Below the pieces are notes generated by a model. It saw only the letters and a program-made list of their open reading frames with translations. It had not been told where the DNA came from and did not search any database. A stretch of DNA of 37,082 nt from Oerskovia enterophila (GTDB taxonomy: Bacteria > Actinomycetota > Actinomycetes > Actinomycetales > Cellulomonadaceae), in contig NZ_MAQA01000048.1 of NCBI RefSeq assembly GCF_001692445.1, forward strand, positions 1-37,082, read 5' to 3'. Positions 22,131 through 35,012 of this stretch are shown piece after piece (position 1 is the first letter of the stretch; every line of letters begins with the position of its first letter). Both the position numbers and the translations under genes were made by a program.

Positions 22131-22841
22131 ATGCCTCCGGACCCGACCTCGCCGCCGCTCGCCGGTCGCAAGCGCGAAGCCCTCGCCAACGACCGCAACG
22201 TGCTGGTCGCAGCGCGCGAGGTCTTCTCCCTCCACGGTCCCGAGGCGACGATCGCGCAGGTCGCCGAGCGGGCAGGCGTCGGCGTCGGGACGGTCTACCG
22301 GCGCTACAGCACCAAGAACGCCCTGGTCCGCGCGCTGCACGTCGCGGCGATCGACGAGCTCGCGCAGATCGCGCGCGAGTGCGCCCAGGAGTCCGGCACC
22401 GCGGAGGTCGCCGCGACGGGTGCCGTCGAGACCTTCCTGCGGCGGCACATCCTCGAGTCGTTCGGCCCGCTCATCATCTCCTCGGGCGAGCACCCGCCCG
22501 CGACGCCCGAGGTCGACACCGCGTCCGCCGCGCTGCACGGGGCGCTCGAGGAGCTCCTGGCGGTCGACCGCGAGGCCGGACTCGTGCCGGCCACCCTCAC
22601 CCCGGCGGACCTGATGCTGCTCATCACCCACCTGCGCCCGCCCCTCCCCCTGCCGCGCGAGCAGGCCGACGCCCTCCACCTGCGCTATCTCGGCGTGACG
22701 CTCGCCGGGCTCGCGCAGGCCGCCGCGTCAGCGGGTTCCCCGGCGACCGCCGCCTCCGAGGCCCTTCCCCCGGGCCCCTCGTGGGAGGACTGGCTCGCGA
22801 TGTGGAGCGCGCGCGACACCGGGACCACCGCGGGAGACTGA
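22131..22841 (+). CDS. TetR-family transcriptional regulator (exporter regulator)
   Basis: Repressor of 236 residues. The N-terminal TetR HTH spans about 15-65: REALANDRNVLVAAREVFSLHG, ATIAQVAERAGVGVGTVYRRYSTKNALVRALH. The rest is a helical ligand-binding domain with an Ala/Pro-rich tail ending WEDWLAMWSARD. ATG 22131 is chosen; a TACCGT box ends 6 nt before it, so the mRNA may be leaderless, although a weak GAAGG is present. A 31-bp palindrome between it and the divergent exporter gene is the likely binding site. Its last 157 bp overlap, on the opposite strand, the 3' end of the dehydrogenase gene. Confidence 0.9.
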   Translation: MPPDPTSPPLAGRKREALANDRNVLVAAREVFSLHGPEATIAQVAERAGVGVGTVYRRYSTKNALVRALHVAAIDELAQIARECAQESGTAEVAATGAVETFLRRHILESFGPLIISSGEHPPATPEVDTASAALHGALEELLAVDREAGLVPATLTPADLMLLITHLRPPLPLPREQADALHLRYLGVTLAGLAQAAASAGSPATAASEALPPGPSWEDWLAMWSARDTGTTAGD

Positions 22842-23890
22842 GCCGCGACCCCGTCGACGAACAGCTCGACGGCCGCGTCTCCCCCGGCCGCCACGAGCCG
22901 CTCCGGGAGGTCGGCCAGGCCGTCGACCTGCTCGACGTGGCGAACGCCCGGCGGGACGCGCCCGGCGAGGACCGCGAGCGCCGCCTCGGCCGCGACCAGC
23001 CCGGTGACCCTCCCCTGGCCCGACGCGACGAGCGATACCTGCGCCGCACGGTCGCCGTCGCGGGCCGTGGCGGCGAGCGCGAACCGGTCGCCGCCCACGT
23101 GCACGGCACCGAAGACCGCCGCGAGCGCGCGCCGCCCGCGCGCACCGCGGAACGCACGCAGCACGCCCGAGCGCCGCGCCCCGAACAACGATGCCGTCAG
23201 CACGCGGGAGTCGAGCGCGAACCGGGTCGTCACCCGGGGCACGTCGAGCGTGCGGCGCAGGGCGTGCTGGTCGGAGAAGTCGAAGGGGTGGACGGTGCGC
23301 CGCCCGAGGGCGGGCAGCAGGACCTGGCGAGGACCGCCGTCGGGCCGTGGTCCGACCAGGCCGTCGACCGTCCAGCGGATCGCGTCCGCGCCGTGCGCCT
23401 CGCCCCCGCCGAGGACCACCGCGACGTCGATCTCCTGGGCACCGCCGACCAGGTCGTGCGCACGGCGGGCGAGCAGGTTCGTGAGCCCAGGTGCGACTCC
23501 CACGCTCAGCACGGCCGCGGCGCCCGCCTCGCGGGCGACCTCGTCGAGGACCTCGGTCGCCTCGAGCTGGCCGCGGGACGCCGAGACGTCCACGAGCGAC
23601 ACGCCCCGCGCGAGGCACGCCCGGGCTACCCGGTCGTCGCCCGGTTCGACGGCCAGGACGACGAGGCCCACCCTGTCGAGCGCCGCGTCGAGGGTCGCGG
23701 GGTCCGCGAGGTCGACCCGTTCCGCTCGGGGCGAGCCGATCCGGCGCGCCGCCTCCTGCGCCGCGGCGAGGCTGCGCCCGGCGGGGACCACCCGGCCGGG
23801 GACGGCCTGGGCGAGCCGTGCGCACACGACCGAGCCCACCGCACCGTAGCCACCGATCACGAGCACGTCCCGTGCATTCACTAGAGTCAT
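22685..23890 (-). CDS. Saccharopine dehydrogenase-like NAD(P)-binding oxidoreductase
   Basis: Cytoplasmic oxidoreductase-like protein of 401 residues. The Rossmann nucleotide-binding motif is at the N-terminus (DVLVIGGYGAVGSVVCARLA), followed by GRSLAAAQEAARRIG and VDLADPATLDAAL, as in the saccharopine dehydrogenase NADP-binding family. A central segment SVGVAPGLTNLLARRAHDLVGG is also typical. The family includes many uncharacterised members, so lysine metabolism is not implied. ATG 23890 lies within a palindromic operator and is reached by a promoter 10-37 bp upstream, giving an almost leaderless mRNA. About 52 C-terminal codons overlap the TetR gene on the other strand; no earlier stop exists in this frame. 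It is divergent from, and probably controlled by, the TetR at 23947. Confidence 0.85.
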   Translation of the reverse strand: MTLVNARDVLVIGGYGAVGSVVCARLAQAVPGRVVPAGRSLAAAQEAARRIGSPRAERVDLADPATLDAALDRVGLVVLAVEPGDDRVARACLARGVSLVDVSASRGQLEATEVLDEVAREAGAAAVLSVGVAPGLTNLLARRAHDLVGGAQEIDVAVVLGGGEAHGADAIRWTVDGLVGPRPDGGPRQVLLPALGRRTVHPFDFSDQHALRRTLDVPRVTTRFALDSRVLTASLFGARRSGVLRAFRGARGRRALAAVFGAVHVGGDRFALAATARDGDRAAQVSLVASGQGRVTGLVAAEAALAVLAGRVPPGVRHVEQVDGLADLPERLVAAGGDAAVELFVDGVAAQSPAVVPVSRALHIASQSSHEGPGGRASEAAVAGEPADAAACASPASVTPR

Positions 23891-23946: not shown

Positions 23947-24585
23947 ATGCCGCCCACCCGCGCCGAGAAGGCCCGCGCGACGCGCACCCGCATCCTCGAC
24001 GCGGCGCACGAGCTCTTCGTCGAGAACGGCTGGACCCGCACCTCGGTCGAGGACGTCGCCCGGGCCGCAGGCGTCGCGACGCAGACGATCTACTACACGT
24101 TCGGCACCAAGCACGCGCTCTTCAAGGAGCTGCTCGACGTGCGCGTCGCGGGCGACCACGACGACGTCGCGACGCTCGACCGGCCCTGGGTGCACGAGGT
24201 GCTGGCCGAACCCGACCCCGCACGCCACCTCGCCCTGCACGCCGCCGGCGCCCGGGCCGTCCTGGACCGCGTCGCCCCGCTGCTGCGGGTGCTGCGCGAC
24301 GCCGCGCCCGGCCTGCCCGCCCTGACCGACCTGTGGGCCGCGAACCAGGAGCAGCGGCGGACCGTCGCCGCGACCCTGACCACCGCGCTCGCCCGCAAGG
24401 CGACGCTCCGGACCAGCACCGAGGCCGCGGCCGACGTGACCCACACGCTGCTCGGCCCCGACACCTACGGCACGCTCGTGCTCGACCTGGGATGGTCCCC
24501 CCAGGCGTGGCAGGACTGGGCCGCCGACGCGCTCGCGCGCCAGCTCCTGGCGCCGTCCGACGCGTCGGGCACGGCGGGTCGGTGA
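23947..24585 (+). CDS. TetR-family transcriptional regulator (dehydrogenase regulator)
   Basis: Repressor of 212 residues with a clear N-terminal TetR HTH (about 5-55): KARATRTRILDAAHELFVENG, TSVEDVARAAGVATQTIYYTFGTKHALFKELLD. The remainder is a helical ligand-binding domain ending GTLVLDLGWSPQAWQDWAADALARQLL. The ATG at 23947 has GAGGAG 6 nt upstream. It is divergent from the saccharopine dehydrogenase-like gene, and the 56-bp gap contains two palindromes, so it probably represses both genes. The inducer is unknown. It is unrelated in detail to the TetR at 22131. Confidence 0.9.
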   Translation: MPPTRAEKARATRTRILDAAHELFVENGWTRTSVEDVARAAGVATQTIYYTFGTKHALFKELLDVRVAGDHDDVATLDRPWVHEVLAEPDPARHLALHAAGARAVLDRVAPLLRVLRDAAPGLPALTDLWAANQEQRRTVAATLTTALARKATLRTSTEAAADVTHTLLGPDTYGTLVLDLGWSPQAWQDWAADALARQLLAPSDASGTAGR

Positions 24586-24647
24586 GCGCCGCTGCACGAC
24601 CGCCGCACGGGAGCCGCCGGGCTCTCGGGCCACCGACGCTCCCCTGC

Positions 24648-24653
24648 TAGGGT
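24648..24653 (+). promoter_or_regulatory. Extended -10 promoter of the metS leader
   Basis: TAGGGT preceded by TGC (extended -10), ending 7 nt before the ATG of the leader peptide. This predicts transcription starting at the leader ATG. No clear -35. Confidence 0.5.
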
Positions 24654-24660
24654 CGACCGT

Positions 24661-24711
24661 ATGAGCCACTCGTCGACCGTCATGATGCGCCCCACCCGGG
24701 GCCCTTCGTGA
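24661..24711 (+). CDS. Candidate attenuator leader peptide with tandem Met codons
   Basis: A 16-codon frame, MSHSSTVMMRPTRGPS, starting 7 nt after an extended -10 box, with Met at positions 1, 8 and 9. It precedes a terminator-like hairpin and then a methionyl-tRNA synthetase gene. The last codons (about 24698-24706, GGGGCCCTT) can pair, with one bulge and a G.U pair, with the hairpin's left arm (AAGGCCTC at 24738-24745). Ribosome stalling at the Met codons could therefore favour an antiterminator. The coding status is inferred from arrangement only. Confidence 0.45.
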   Translation: MSHSSTVMMRPTRGPS

Positions 24712-24737
24712 TGCGCTGACCGCGCTCGTCACCACCC

Positions 24738-24761
24738 AAGGCCTCGCCGCAGCGAGGCCTT
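24738..24761 (+). terminator. Attenuator hairpin upstream of the methionyl-tRNA synthetase gene
   Basis: AAGGCCTCGC (24738-24747) and GCGAGGCCTT (24752-24761) pair perfectly over 10 bp around CGCA and are followed by TCGTGTGT. It lies 82 nt before the synthetase ATG, on the same transcript as the leader peptide. Confidence 0.65.
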
Positions 24762-24843
24762 TCGTGTGTCCGGGCCCGGTGCGGTCGAGGCGTCCGTCGA
24801 GGCACCCGCCGAGGTGCCGCAGTCCCCGAGAGGACCCTGCGCC

Positions 24844-26454
24844 ATGACCGTCCCGCCCGCACAGCCCACGCCGGCCGGCAGCACCGCACCGCCCGCCGGC
24901 CCCACCTTCTACGTCACGACCGCGATCCCCTACGTCAACGGCGACCCGCACCTGGGTCATGCGCTCGAGCTGGTCCAGACCGACGTCCTGGCTCGCCACG
25001 CACGCCTGCGCGGGCGGCCGACCCGCTTCCTGACCGGCACCGACGACCACGCCCTCAAGAACGTGAGCGCCGCCCGCGCCGCGGACCGTGAGGTCGGGGG
25101 ATTCGTCGCCGAGCGCGTCGAGGACTTCCGCGCCCTGCGCCCCGCGCTGTCGTTGTCCACGGACGACTTCCTGTCGACGTCGTCCGACCCCCGTCACCGG
25201 CCGGGCGTCGAGGCTCTGTGGCGTCGCTGCGCCGAGGCCGGCGACTTCTACCGACGCTCCTACGAGGGCCTGTACTGCGCGGGCTGCGAGCAGTTCTACA
25301 CCCCCGACGAGCTCGACGCGTCGGGCCGCTGTCCGGAGCACGTGCCCCTGCCCGAGCGCGTCGTCGAGGAGAACTGGTTCTTCCGGCTGTCCCGCTACCG
25401 CGACCGCATCCGTGAGGAGATCGCGACGGGGCGCGTGCGCATCAACCCGGCCGCCAAGCGCAACGAGGTCCTCGCGTTCATCGACGCCGGGCTCGAGGAC
25501 TTCAGCGTCTCGCGGCCAGCAGCCCGTTCGGACGGGTGGGGCGTCCCCGTGCCGGGCGACCCCTCGCAGGTGGTGTACGTGTGGTGGGACGCGCTGACCA
25601 ACTACGTCACCGCGCTGGGCTACGGCTCGGACCAGGCCGACCCGGGCGCCGCGGACGACTACCGCACCTGGTGGTCCGGCGGCAACGAGCGCGTGCACGT
25701 GATCGGCAAGGGCATCACACGTTTCCACGCGGTGTACTGGCTCGCGCTCCTGCTCTCGGCGGGCGAGCCGCTGCCCACCACGATCCACGTGCACGACTAC
25801 GTCACGGCCGGCGGCGCCAAGCTCGCCAAGTCCGCGGGCACCGCGGTGCACCCCGTCGGGCTCGTGGACGCCTACGGCACCGACGCGCTGCGCTGGTGGT
25901 TCGCGCGCGAGGTCCCGCTCCTGGGCGATGCCGAGTTCACGACCGAGCGCCTCGTCGCGCGGCACGACGACGAGCTGGCCCACGGCGTGGGCAACCTGGT
26001 CAACCGCACGCTCACGCTCGTGCACCGGTTCCGGGACGGCGTCGTACCCGCGCTCCCCCGCACCCGGGCGAGCGCACCCGACGAGCTGGGCTCCGCCGTC
26101 GGGCAGGTCGCCCCTGCCGTGGACGCGGCCCTCGCGGACGCGGACCTGCGGACCGCGACCGGGGCCGTGTGGCGCATCGTCGACGCGGCCAACCGGTACG
26201 TCAACGCCGAGAAGCCGTGGGAGCTCGCAGCCCGCGAGCGCGCCGGGGGCACGGACGCGGGTGGACGACTGGACGAGGTGCTCGCGCGGCTCGTCGAGGC
26301 GTGCCGGGTCGTGGCGGCCGAGCTCTCGCCGTTCGTGCCCGACGGCGCCGCGCGGCTCCGCGAGCAGCTCCTCCCGGCCGCGGCGGCAGGCGGGCAGAGG
26401 GCCGGCGACGACCGGGTCGGCAGCCCCGACCCGGTCTTCCCGCGCCTGGGCTGA
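24844..26454 (+). CDS. Methionyl-tRNA synthetase, divergent form
   Basis: Class I synthetase that charges tRNA-Met, 536 residues. The catalytic core is clear: FYVTTAIPYVNGDPHLGHALE (HIGH motif as HLGH), FLTGTDDHALKNV, a zinc-knuckle segment YCAGCEQFYTPDELDASGRCPEH, VVYVWWDALTNYVTALGYG, and the anticodon-binding NRYVNAEKPWELA. The KMSKS loop is changed to KLAKS (GGAKLAKSAGT), keeping both lysines. It lacks the C-terminal tRNA-binding (Arc1p-like) domain. The start ATG has GAGAGGA about 9 nt upstream. The degenerate motifs and the leader suggest an accessory or stress-induced MetRS, with a standard enzyme elsewhere, but that cannot be seen here. It could also be the only MetRS. Confidence 0.9.
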   Translation: MTVPPAQPTPAGSTAPPAGPTFYVTTAIPYVNGDPHLGHALELVQTDVLARHARLRGRPTRFLTGTDDHALKNVSAARAADREVGGFVAERVEDFRALRPALSLSTDDFLSTSSDPRHRPGVEALWRRCAEAGDFYRRSYEGLYCAGCEQFYTPDELDASGRCPEHVPLPERVVEENWFFRLSRYRDRIREEIATGRVRINPAAKRNEVLAFIDAGLEDFSVSRPAARSDGWGVPVPGDPSQVVYVWWDALTNYVTALGYGSDQADPGAADDYRTWWSGGNERVHVIGKGITRFHAVYWLALLLSAGEPLPTTIHVHDYVTAGGAKLAKSAGTAVHPVGLVDAYGTDALRWWFAREVPLLGDAEFTTERLVARHDDELAHGVGNLVNRTLTLVHRFRDGVVPALPRTRASAPDELGSAVGQVAPAVDAALADADLRTATGAVWRIVDAANRYVNAEKPWELAARERAGGTDAGGRLDEVLARLVEACRVVAAELSPFVPDGAARLREQLLPAAAAGGQRAGDDRVGSPDPVFPRLG

Positions 26455-32930: not shown

Positions 32931-35012
32931 TCACCACGCGAGCGCGTCGCGCAGCTTGTCCTCGAGCCGTGCCGACAGGGCCAGGTCGTCGCGCACCGCG
33001 GTGCGCTCGGCCACGGCGCGGCGCGGGCTGCTCGTGATGATGCCGTCGACGCCGCTGCGGAGCTGGGCCCGCATCGCGGCCGGGTCGTTGACCGTCCACA
33101 CGTAGACGTCGATCCCGGCCGCACGCGCCTCGGCCCGCACGCGCGTGGTGTCCGACGACTGCTCGATCGCGACGAAGTCGACGGGCAGGACCCCGAGCGG
33201 GCCGCGCAGGAACGGGACGACGTACCCGACCGCGATCTCCGGGCCGAGCGCGTGCACCTCGTCGGCCTGCTCGGGGTAGATCGACTGGACCAGGTAGTCG
33301 TCCGCGACGCCGTGCGCCCGCAGGAGCGCGACGACGTCCGCGACGAACGTCGGTGTCTCGTGGCCGTGCGCCTTGAGCTCGACCAGGAGCGGCACGTCGA
33401 GCTCCTGAGCGCGCTCGACGAACTCCTCGAGCGACGGGATGGTCGCCTCGAACCCGCCCTGGCGGATCGTCGTCGAGGTCAGCTCGTCGAGCGTCATGGT
33501 GTGCACGGCGCGGTCGGAGCCCGCGAGGCGCCGCAGGGTCAGGTCGTGGAAGACGACGAGCCCGCCGTCGGCGGCCTGGAGGACGTCGAGCTCGACGTAG
33601 TCCGCGCCGAGCGCCGCGGCGGACTCGAGCGACGCGATCGAGTTCTCGACGCCGCCGCCCGGGTCGCCGCGGTGCGCGATCACCGCGCCGGGCTCCTCGC
33701 GCGCGAGGGTCGTCATGGCTCGGGTGTTGGTCGCGGTGACCGCGACGAGCACCAGCACGGCCCCCAGCCCGACGGCGGCGCGCACCCCGCGCGGCCGGCT
33801 CGCCCACCCGCTCCCGAGGACGGGCGGCACGCGGCCCGACGAGCCGGACGAGCCCGACGAGCCCGACGAGCCCCTGCCCGCCGTCACCGAACGACCCGCG
33901 GACTCCTCCGCCGGACCGGCCTCGCCGTCCCGCAGGTCCGCGTCCCCGGACACCGACGGCCCCGCGGAGCCGGCCACCGGCCCGGGCGAGGAGGCGTCGC
34001 CGACAGGAGCTGCGCCGTCGGGCAGCGACTCGCGCCGCTCCCCCGCGACCACGACCACGACCTGCGTGAGCAGCGCGGCGACGAAGCCCACGAGCACGAA
34101 CCCGACCACCTGCACGACCGTGAGCGTCACGCCCGCGACGACCGGCGCGGCACCGGGCGCAGCCAGGTCGGCGACGCGCGTGGGGACCAGCGCGAGCATC
34201 ACGATGCCCGCCGCGACCACGACCACGCCGAGCGCGACCACCGCGAACGTGCCCAGGAGGCGCGGCCAGAGCCCGCGCGTCGCCCGCCAGCTCGCGGCCA
34301 TGGAGCCGGACACCGAGGCGTCGGACGTCAGCAGGAACGCGAGCGTCAGGACCAGTCGCAGGTTCAGGAACAGCACGCCCGCGAGGAACGCGAGGTAGAC
34401 GTAGACGCCGCCGTCGAACTTGAGGAGCTCCCCGACCACGAATTCCGGGATCGCGATGCCGCGCACCAGGAACGCCGCGGTCCCGAAGTTGCCCACCGGC
34501 ACGAGCACGAAGAAGTAGCCCACGAACAGCAGGAGCTGGGGGCCGAGGAGCTTGCGGCTCGTGCGCGCGAGGTCGGCGCCCACGGCCCGCACCGAGACGG
34601 GCTCGCCCGCGCGCAGCCGGGCGCCGATCGCGAGGAACGCGCCCTGCTGGCACAGGACCACGACCGACGCGACGAGCGCCACGACCAGCAGGAGGAGCAC
34701 CGCGACCGGGCTCGACAGGACGCGCAGCACGTTGAGGTGCGTGAGCGCGCCGGCGCCCGCCGCCGCGAGCGCCACGTCGAACAGCCACACCATGAGCGGG
34801 ACCGCGACGAGCGCCGCCGCGCCCTGCAGGAGCAGGACCGCCCCGAGGTACGTCGGCAGGTGCGCGCGGACCGTGCGCGCGGCGGGTCCGAGCAGCGCGG
34901 TGCGCTGCGGTCGGTCGCGGGCAGAGCGCCGCGCGGCGTCGCCGTCGGGACGCGGCATGCCCGAGCGGGTCGGGGCAGTGCGGGGGGCGGTCGGACGGGC
35001 GGCTGGTGGCAC
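32931..35012 (-). CDS. Membrane-anchored glycerophosphodiester phosphodiesterase
   Basis: A 693-residue two-part protein. About six membrane helices occupy residues 50-430 (from LPTYLGAVLLLQGAAALVAVPLMVWLF), the GDPD membrane domain. A catalytic GDPD domain starts at about 440 and hydrolyses glycerophosphodiesters to glycerol-3-phosphate and an alcohol. Catalytic residues are visible: His447-Arg448 in AHRGDPGG, Glu474 and Asp476 in VELDV, and His489 in VFHDLTL. A hydrophilic linker (about 340-400) contains a GSS repeat. GTG 35012 is supported by a TAGGCT box 6 nt upstream (35019-35024, minus strand), implying a leaderless mRNA; no Shine-Dalgarno sequence exists. It follows the DUF1353 gene by 62 bp. 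Confidence 0.9.
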   Translation of the reverse strand: MPPAARPTAPRTAPTRSGMPRPDGDAARRSARDRPQRTALLGPAARTVRAHLPTYLGAVLLLQGAAALVAVPLMVWLFDVALAAAGAGALTHLNVLRVLSSPVAVLLLLVVALVASVVVLCQQGAFLAIGARLRAGEPVSVRAVGADLARTSRKLLGPQLLLFVGYFFVLVPVGNFGTAAFLVRGIAIPEFVVGELLKFDGGVYVYLAFLAGVLFLNLRLVLTLAFLLTSDASVSGSMAASWRATRGLWPRLLGTFAVVALGVVVVAAGIVMLALVPTRVADLAAPGAAPVVAGVTLTVVQVVGFVLVGFVAALLTQVVVVVAGERRESLPDGAAPVGDASSPGPVAGSAGPSVSGDADLRDGEAGPAEESAGRSVTAGRGSSGSSGSSGSSGRVPPVLGSGWASRPRGVRAAVGLGAVLVLVAVTATNTRAMTTLAREEPGAVIAHRGDPGGGVENSIASLESAAALGADYVELDVLQAADGGLVVFHDLTLRRLAGSDRAVHTMTLDELTSTTIRQGGFEATIPSLEEFVERAQELDVPLLVELKAHGHETPTFVADVVALLRAHGVADDYLVQSIYPEQADEVHALGPEIAVGYVVPFLRGPLGVLPVDFVAIEQSSDTTRVRAEARAAGIDVYVWTVNDPAAMRAQLRSGVDGIITSSPRRAVAERTAVRDDLALSARLEDKLRDALAW
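33838..33873 (-). repeat. Four 9-bp tandem repeats encoding a GSS linker
   Basis: GACGAGCCS (S = C/G) occurs four times; on the coding strand it gives Gly-Ser-Ser repeats in the linker between the last membrane-domain segment and the catalytic region. Its copy number could vary between strains. Confidence 0.8.

Follow-up and report, generated by a model that had tools for sequence, protein, structure and literature searches.

Synthetase genes in Streptomyces are known to be controlled by ribosome-mediated attenuation. For S. lividans, PMC8079986 describes the leader-peptide attenuators leuL2-leuS, trpL2-trpS, thrL-thrS (stated to be leaderless) and alaL-alaS, and PMC1262725 describes those of Streptomyces trpS and leuS. 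In these systems, as at the locus analysed here, a short frame with cognate codons precedes the synthetase gene and is followed by hairpins. Compared with these systems, the present locus differs in its amino acid, methionine, which also starts every protein; in its gene, which encodes a second methionyl-tRNA synthetase (MetRS); in the depletion of the product for the cognate amino acid; and in a helix that hides the Shine-Dalgarno (SD) sequence. For methionine operons, the accessible text of PMC1262725 reports that conserved structures were absent, and metS and metG go unmentioned in the accessible text of PMC2965389 and PMC4833913. A Met leader peptide has been proposed for metL before metNIQ of S. 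lividans, likewise leaderless (PMC8079986); unlike the present leader, its peptide MSTTSDRTPATEATTTPGARCMCRRMCAF has two scattered internal Met residues, there is no clear terminator, and the genes are transporter genes and not MetRS.

T-box elements and SAM riboswitches also place Met-related genes under RNA control. Both were rejected here: at gathering scores no Rfam family, these two included, matched the window, i.e. the whole analysed stretch of 37,082 nucleotides from Oerskovia enterophila (contig NZ_MAQA01000048.1), and none matched up to E 1 within 24600–24900. In Streptomyces coelicolor, an auxiliary, indolmycin-resistant TrpRS is reportedly under ribosome-mediated attenuation (work attributed to Vecchione and Sello, and to Kitabatake in 2002). 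It resembles the enzyme described here in being a second synthetase that is probably induced upon failure of the main one; it differs in concerning Trp and not Met, and a resistance role of the MetRS in the window is only conjectural. Low cognate bias is described for amino acid biosynthesis enzymes and pathways in PMC4209129. The likeness is that an enzyme which relieves a shortage avoids that very amino acid; the cases described in that paper are biosynthetic pathways, whereas here a synthetase has zero Met in the protein body.

Word searches of the open literature showed no report of a Met leader upstream of a MetRS gene, and a published case may exist elsewhere. The kind of control is known from the synthetase genes of Streptomyces, and what appears to be new here is the Met/MetRS case together with a nearly Met-free enzyme. 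With fairly high confidence, we interpret the locus as an attenuator of the ribosome-mediated kind, which responds to a lack of Met-tRNA and governs an auxiliary MetRS.

Organization of the metS2 upstream region

The auxiliary MetRS gene, metS2, is located at 24844–26454 on the forward strand, as are all features below, and encodes 536 aa from an ATG at 24844. Upstream of it, an extended -10 element (TGC TAGGGT, 24645–24653, with TGC at 24645–24647 and TAGGGT at 24648–24653) is placed 7 nt 5' of the ATG of a leader peptide frame, MSHSSTVMMRPTRGPS* (24661–24711), comprising 16 codons plus stop. Two tandem Met codons within the frame (ATGATG, 24682–24687) form the presumed stall site. They are spanned by hairpin 1:2 (24679–24712; -18.5 kcal/mol, 0/200 shuffles as stable), the core of which consists of arm 1 at 24689–24693 (GCCCC) and arm 2 at 24698–24702 (GGGGC). 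Hairpin 3:4 with its T-rich tail occupies 24738–24771 and includes a perfect 10-bp hairpin at 24738–24761, followed by TCGTGTGT. A small hairpin (GTCC-CCGAGA-GGAC, 24822–24835) carries the MetRS SD sequence at 24828–24834.

A sequence-only reading of this DNA had proposed a methionine-responsive attenuator in front of a divergent MetRS gene, and the parts that it named (extended -10, short frame, Met-Met, 10-bp hairpin and MetRS start) were all found in place. The gene is indeed divergent, its product being 42% identical to the housekeeping copy of the same genome. By its tandem cognate codons, the leader frame appears to be of the type found in trp-type attenuators. From the position of the -10 element, the transcript is predicted to be leaderless, with its 5' end at or near 24661. 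A simple promoter and terminator scan of 24300–25300 returned 0 promoters and 0 terminators. Perfect stems of at least 10 bp occur at nine places in the GC-rich window (18 overlapping matches), so that the 10-bp hairpin is unremarkable by itself.

Conservation of the leader frame

Orthologues were collected by a genome-contig scan, which retained 80 of 157 relatives. A leader frame with internal Met was present 5' of 76 of these 80 genes (67 with Met-Met, 9 with a single Met), the leader start being picked by hand where several were possible. By automatic detection, a Met-Met frame preceded 67/80 orthologues (shuffled mean 0.28), a Met-Met frame plus -10 box 64/80 (shuffled 0.02), and a frame with at least one Met plus -10 box 73/80 (shuffled 0.92). 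Of the 76 leader-bearing orthologues, 60 had a TANNNT box located 6–8 nt 5' of the leader start. The leader frame was not seen for the remaining 4/80 (L050, L099, L110 and L116).

A second sample comprised 394 genomes of the class, in which the gene was found at ≥55% identity in 36 besides the own genome; two weaker matches (42–43% identity) were left out, and at least 3 of the 36 loci repeat loci of the first set. Automatic detection gave a Met-Met frame at 30/36 loci (shuffled 0.36), a Met-Met frame plus -10 box at 29/36 (shuffled 0.0), and at least one Met plus -10 box at 35/36 (shuffled 1.04). A strict GC-hairpin criterion was satisfied by only 14/36; at the 13 loci of genus g95 the hairpin lies over the Met codons. 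The conservation on which the sequence-only reading depended was borne out for the short frame, for the Met codons in it and for the hairpins: the leader is present in 7/7 genomes of the own genus (Oerskovia) and was found, with differing sequences, in many actinobacterial families.

No leader frame preceded any of 23 housekeeping MetRS genes, the copy of the own genome included. An RNA model built without the own genus had its best match in the window at 24673–24769 (E 8.7e-5). The second-best match, at 33028–33130 (+) with 13.6 bits and E 0.0032, may be an ordinary hairpin. When RNA model R1 was run over the 394 genomes, 28 of the best 30 loci were without a leader; the two with a leader both belonged to this MetRS. 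Among the R1 matches ranked below 30th, G216 and G308 are, by position, just upstream of this MetRS. Among the genes examined, the leader is confined to this MetRS clade.

These counts bear on whether the locus could be a chance assembly of the terminator of the upstream TetR-type gene and an unrelated short frame. Perfect 10-bp stems are common in the GC-rich window, and so are GAGGCCCC-type hairpins, as the chance matches of the RNA model illustrate; a leader retained in nearly all orthologues and throughout the genus, absent from the housekeeping controls and all but lost on shuffling makes such an assembly scarcely credible.

Leader peptides and the first hairpin

The leader peptides are diverse (104 distinct in 112 loci), and the Met codons are their common part: after the start, Met accounts for 219/1796 residues (12.2%) in the 104 distinct peptides. 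Leaders of genus g95 (L164–L176) have a GTG start and 3–4 Met codons (Met-Met-Leu-Met-x-Met or similar), and their hairpin arms, CCGGATG/CATCCGG and GGCCTC/GAGGCC, are of other sequence in the same layout. Arm 1 begins 5–8 nt past the first Met nucleotide in 75/77 loci (searched range: 5–14 nt); in the window its core starts 7 nt after that nucleotide, and the g95 arm overlaps the Met codons themselves. Given the usual size of a ribosome footprint, arm 1 would be covered by a ribosome that halts at the Met codons.

Short leaders of the nascent-peptide or antibiotic-sensing kind are known in actinobacteria, and in such a leader the stall would result from the peptide or a drug and not from lack of Met-tRNA. 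Pro and Arg are indeed frequent after Met-Met, which would suit a peptide-dependent stall, yet the peptides vary widely on both sides of Met, other leaders have 3–4 spread Met codons, and 5/76 leaders, of 12 residues, end at MMPR* with the stop codon inside the loop of hairpin 1:2. The controlled gene, moreover, encodes a MetRS with hardly any Met. Stalling by peptide or drug is accordingly very unlikely in our view, and a stall for lack of Met-tRNA is the reading pursued here.

Among 21 relatives belonging to the window's clade, the sequence TGCGCT (24712–24717; columns 40–45 of alignment A3) shows almost no variation. In most of these it codes for the leader end (..VR stop); the frame in the window ends just before it, and in L011 and L078 the frame continues through it to ..FVMR.

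Probable terminator and possible antiterminator

Both hairpins are more stable than in shuffles. Over 31 lineages, hairpin 1:2 had a mean of -14.5 kcal/mol, compared with -11.3 kcal/mol in shuffled leaders (sd 0.45), and hairpin 3:4 a mean of -19.2 kcal/mol, compared with -13.1 kcal/mol (sd 0.69). When arms were swapped between lineages, the 3:4 arms favoured their own partner beyond the effect of best-hairpin selection (gap -7.45 vs -4.84, sd 0.64, 20 shuffled sets). The 1:2 arms in the same 31 lineages showed no coevolution beyond selection bias (gap -3.96 vs -4.41 in shuffles). An apparent coevolution of 1:2 in the first swap test (0/2000) was discarded, since shuffled leaders gave a gap just as large, which stems from picking the arms as each sequence's best hairpin; only the stability of 1:2 was retained. 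In that first test some 3:4 hairpins were misassigned (e.g. L104, L111). In the largest clade, arm sequences differ very little, and covariation or pair counts there are therefore uninformative either way. RNAalifold on 60 pooled leaders was misleading because the hairpin register is offset by 2 nt between the two clades, and split alignments were used instead.

The 10 nt after 3:4 contain 29.5% T, compared with 10.7% further on (77 loci). Hairpin 3:4 is thus conserved and stable, with a T-enriched tail; the U-run is short, and the strict scan of 24300–25300 finds no terminator. From these properties, 3:4 is probably an intrinsic terminator.

The sequence-only reading had held that GGGGCCCTT (24698–24706), overlapping the end of the frame, can pair with the left arm of the 24738–24761 hairpin, giving mutually exclusive terminator and antiterminator folds. 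The pairing is recovered in the predicted fold: with the 5' arm omitted, the segment 24696–24750 adopts 2:3 together with an inner hairpin (-22.0 kcal/mol; 14/200 shuffles as good, z -1.65), the candidate antiterminator (24697–24746) being formed by 24697–24703 with 24740–24746 around the inner hairpin. Pairing of 2:3 was also feasible in 25/25 lineages tried with hand-set arms (-8.6 to -15.8 kcal/mol). Covariation gave the pairing no support: in two swap tests, 1782/2000 and 4453/5000 permutations were at least as good as the own partners of 2:3. These tests have low power, because the core is mostly identical in arms 1 and 3, and likewise in arms 2 and 4, so that swapped partners pair well. 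The antiterminator 2:3 is hence a feasible candidate, and its role in the switch is suggested by folding and not by coevolution.

Shine-Dalgarno helix

In 25 lineages, the pairing that hides the SD sequence of metS2 coevolves: cognate partners gave -16.95 kcal/mol and swapped partners -13.96 kcal/mol, a difference reached by 0/5000 permutations, and two control regions in the same test showed no such preference (895/5000 and 2086/5000). The regions of the SD helix were set by position and not by pairing, and the selection bias from best hairpins therefore does not apply. The SD sequence is apparently hidden by an upstream arm in these 25 lineages, and weakly so in the window, where the SD hairpin consists of few pairs and both 4:5 and 5:6 are no better than shuffles. 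Across loci, 4:5 reached p ≤ 0.05 against shuffles in 24/76 and 5:6 in 23/76 (related loci). A relay helix 4:5 was unsupported in the swap test (643/5000 permutations).

Since the SD-hiding helix coevolves, output of metS2 may be partly translational, and the same sensor could act wholly in this way, stalling freeing the SD sequence and 3:4 serving as a relay helix and not as a terminator. The absence of a clear U-run from many relatives (27/77 with ≤2 T in the 10 nt following the chosen hairpin) speaks for this, as does the coevolving helix; the enrichment of T directly after 3:4, the unsupported relay pairing and the weak SD hairpin in the window speak against it. A purely translational output is on balance unlikely, if well short of implausible. 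We read the case in the window as mainly one of a terminator, with SD control as a rival or an addition. On the whole, the attenuator interpretation of the sequence-only reading is supported; the SD-hiding helix and the Met-poor enzyme were unforeseen in it.

Proposed mechanism

Transcription would begin at or beside the leader ATG. With ample Met-tRNA, the ribosome would pass the two Met codons, arm 2 would be paired with arm 1 or lie under the ribosome near the stop codon, and the 3:4 hairpin would form, so that transcription would stop before metS2. With scarce Met-tRNA, the ribosome would halt at the Met codons and cover arm 1; arm 2, thereby freed, would pair with arm 3, no terminator would form and metS2 would be transcribed. 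In many relatives, in which an extra helix hides the SD sequence of metS2, the same switch may also govern translation. A shortage of Met would slow initiation as well, which a Met sensor must tolerate.

If the proposal holds, the amino acid sensed by this attenuator is the one with which translation itself begins, and the question arises of how elongator and initiator Met-tRNA are distinguished during shortage.

The methionine-poor MetRS

The MetRS in the window scored 371.2 bits against TIGR00398 (cut-off 336.35), the other listed MetRS models remaining below their own cut-offs. Its nearest solved relatives are 4dlp, 1a8h, 2x1l and 4qrd (E 2e-90 to 3e-101), and E. coli-type MetRS structures match it at about E 1e-47. 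An identity as a MetRS2-type enzyme (inhibitor-resistant, E. coli-like) was rejected, the sequence being closer to the former four than to the E. coli type; this follows the presumed assignment of the solved chains to the MetRS1 (Gram-positive) and MetRS2 (E. coli) types.

After its start codon the protein in the window contains 0 Met. In orthologues, Met was counted from the first conserved motif onward. The 76 leader-bearing orthologues have 0–3 Met (median 2), the 6 other Oerskovia rows 0, the 23 housekeeping MetRS 6–11 (8 in the copy of the own genome) and the other-type MetRS (3 rows) 9–11. Four sole-copy g95 enzymes have 4–5 Met, and G271 has 6. In L050, L099, L110 and L116, which are leaderless, belong to one family and have another MetRS present, 3–5 Met were counted; leader loss here accompanies weaker Met depletion.

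The Met share is 0.22% in leader-bearing and 1.42% in housekeeping rows (log2 -2.69; re-anchored housekeeping value 1.56%), the two sets being partly of different genera. Met is the most depleted of the 20 amino acids in the leader-bearing rows, followed by Lys (log2 -1.32). Even the Met of the KMSKS motif is replaced by Ile, Leu or Val in all 77 leader rows; in the window, the motif reads KLAKS (residues 326–330, nt 25819–25833). In 400 kb sampled from the own genome, 0/82 long ORFs were Met-free, and the mean Met content was 1.43%. The neighbouring gene at 22685–23890 (401 aa) is likewise Met-free after its start. A single protein is therefore weak proof, and the argument rests on the contrast between clades.

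An enzyme nearly free of Met could be synthesized even when elongator Met-tRNA runs low, and the depletion thus fits expression during Met-tRNA shortage. Tentatively, and with somewhat less than even confidence, the locus may be extended to a rescue module across actinobacteria, in which a leader peptide translated from a leaderless transcript would gauge elongator Met-tRNA, a helix relay would open both transcription and the SD sequence, and the MetRS would be stripped of Met even in KMSKS, allowing its synthesis once Met-tRNA is exhausted.

Pairing of such a sensor with a product independent of the sensed amino acid would, if true, be a clear-cut example of composition under selection. Many actinobacteria would then hold a spare MetRS, which may protect against MetRS inhibitors, and leader plus Met-free body could be used as a marker for finding spare MetRS.

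Copy number and descent

In the own genome, the housekeeping MetRS is on another contig, and the MetRS in the window is the second copy. Another MetRS was found in 7/7 genomes of the genus Oerskovia and in 15/15 genomes of family f38, and a second strong MetRS-domain match in six of seven f35 genomes, in G104 and in 10/10 further genomes. In genus g95, 11/13 genomes were without another domain-spanning MetRS match, some genomes being incomplete; the exceptions are G182, with a second MetRS-like frame, and G355, with a weaker match (E 3.8e-33). Only one MetRS was seen in G271, the same limit on completeness applying. Apparently the sole MetRS in 11/13 g95 genomes, the leader-controlled enzyme is not always auxiliary.

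In the tree, 24 leader-bearing rows, five sole copies and four leaderless rows form one branch (100/98). Within it, the leaderless rows cluster as a branch of their own (100/100), which groups with the second leader-bearing set (90/87). The simplest reading of this topology is that the leader arrived with the clade and was then lost once. Two Oerskovia relatives join the window protein with branch support of 100/100, and Oerskovia probably gained leader and MetRS by transfer. At two loci, G154:C1:4127265-4128724 and G025:C1:3395512-3397140, the auxiliary MetRS was matched in two pieces and may be frameshifted.
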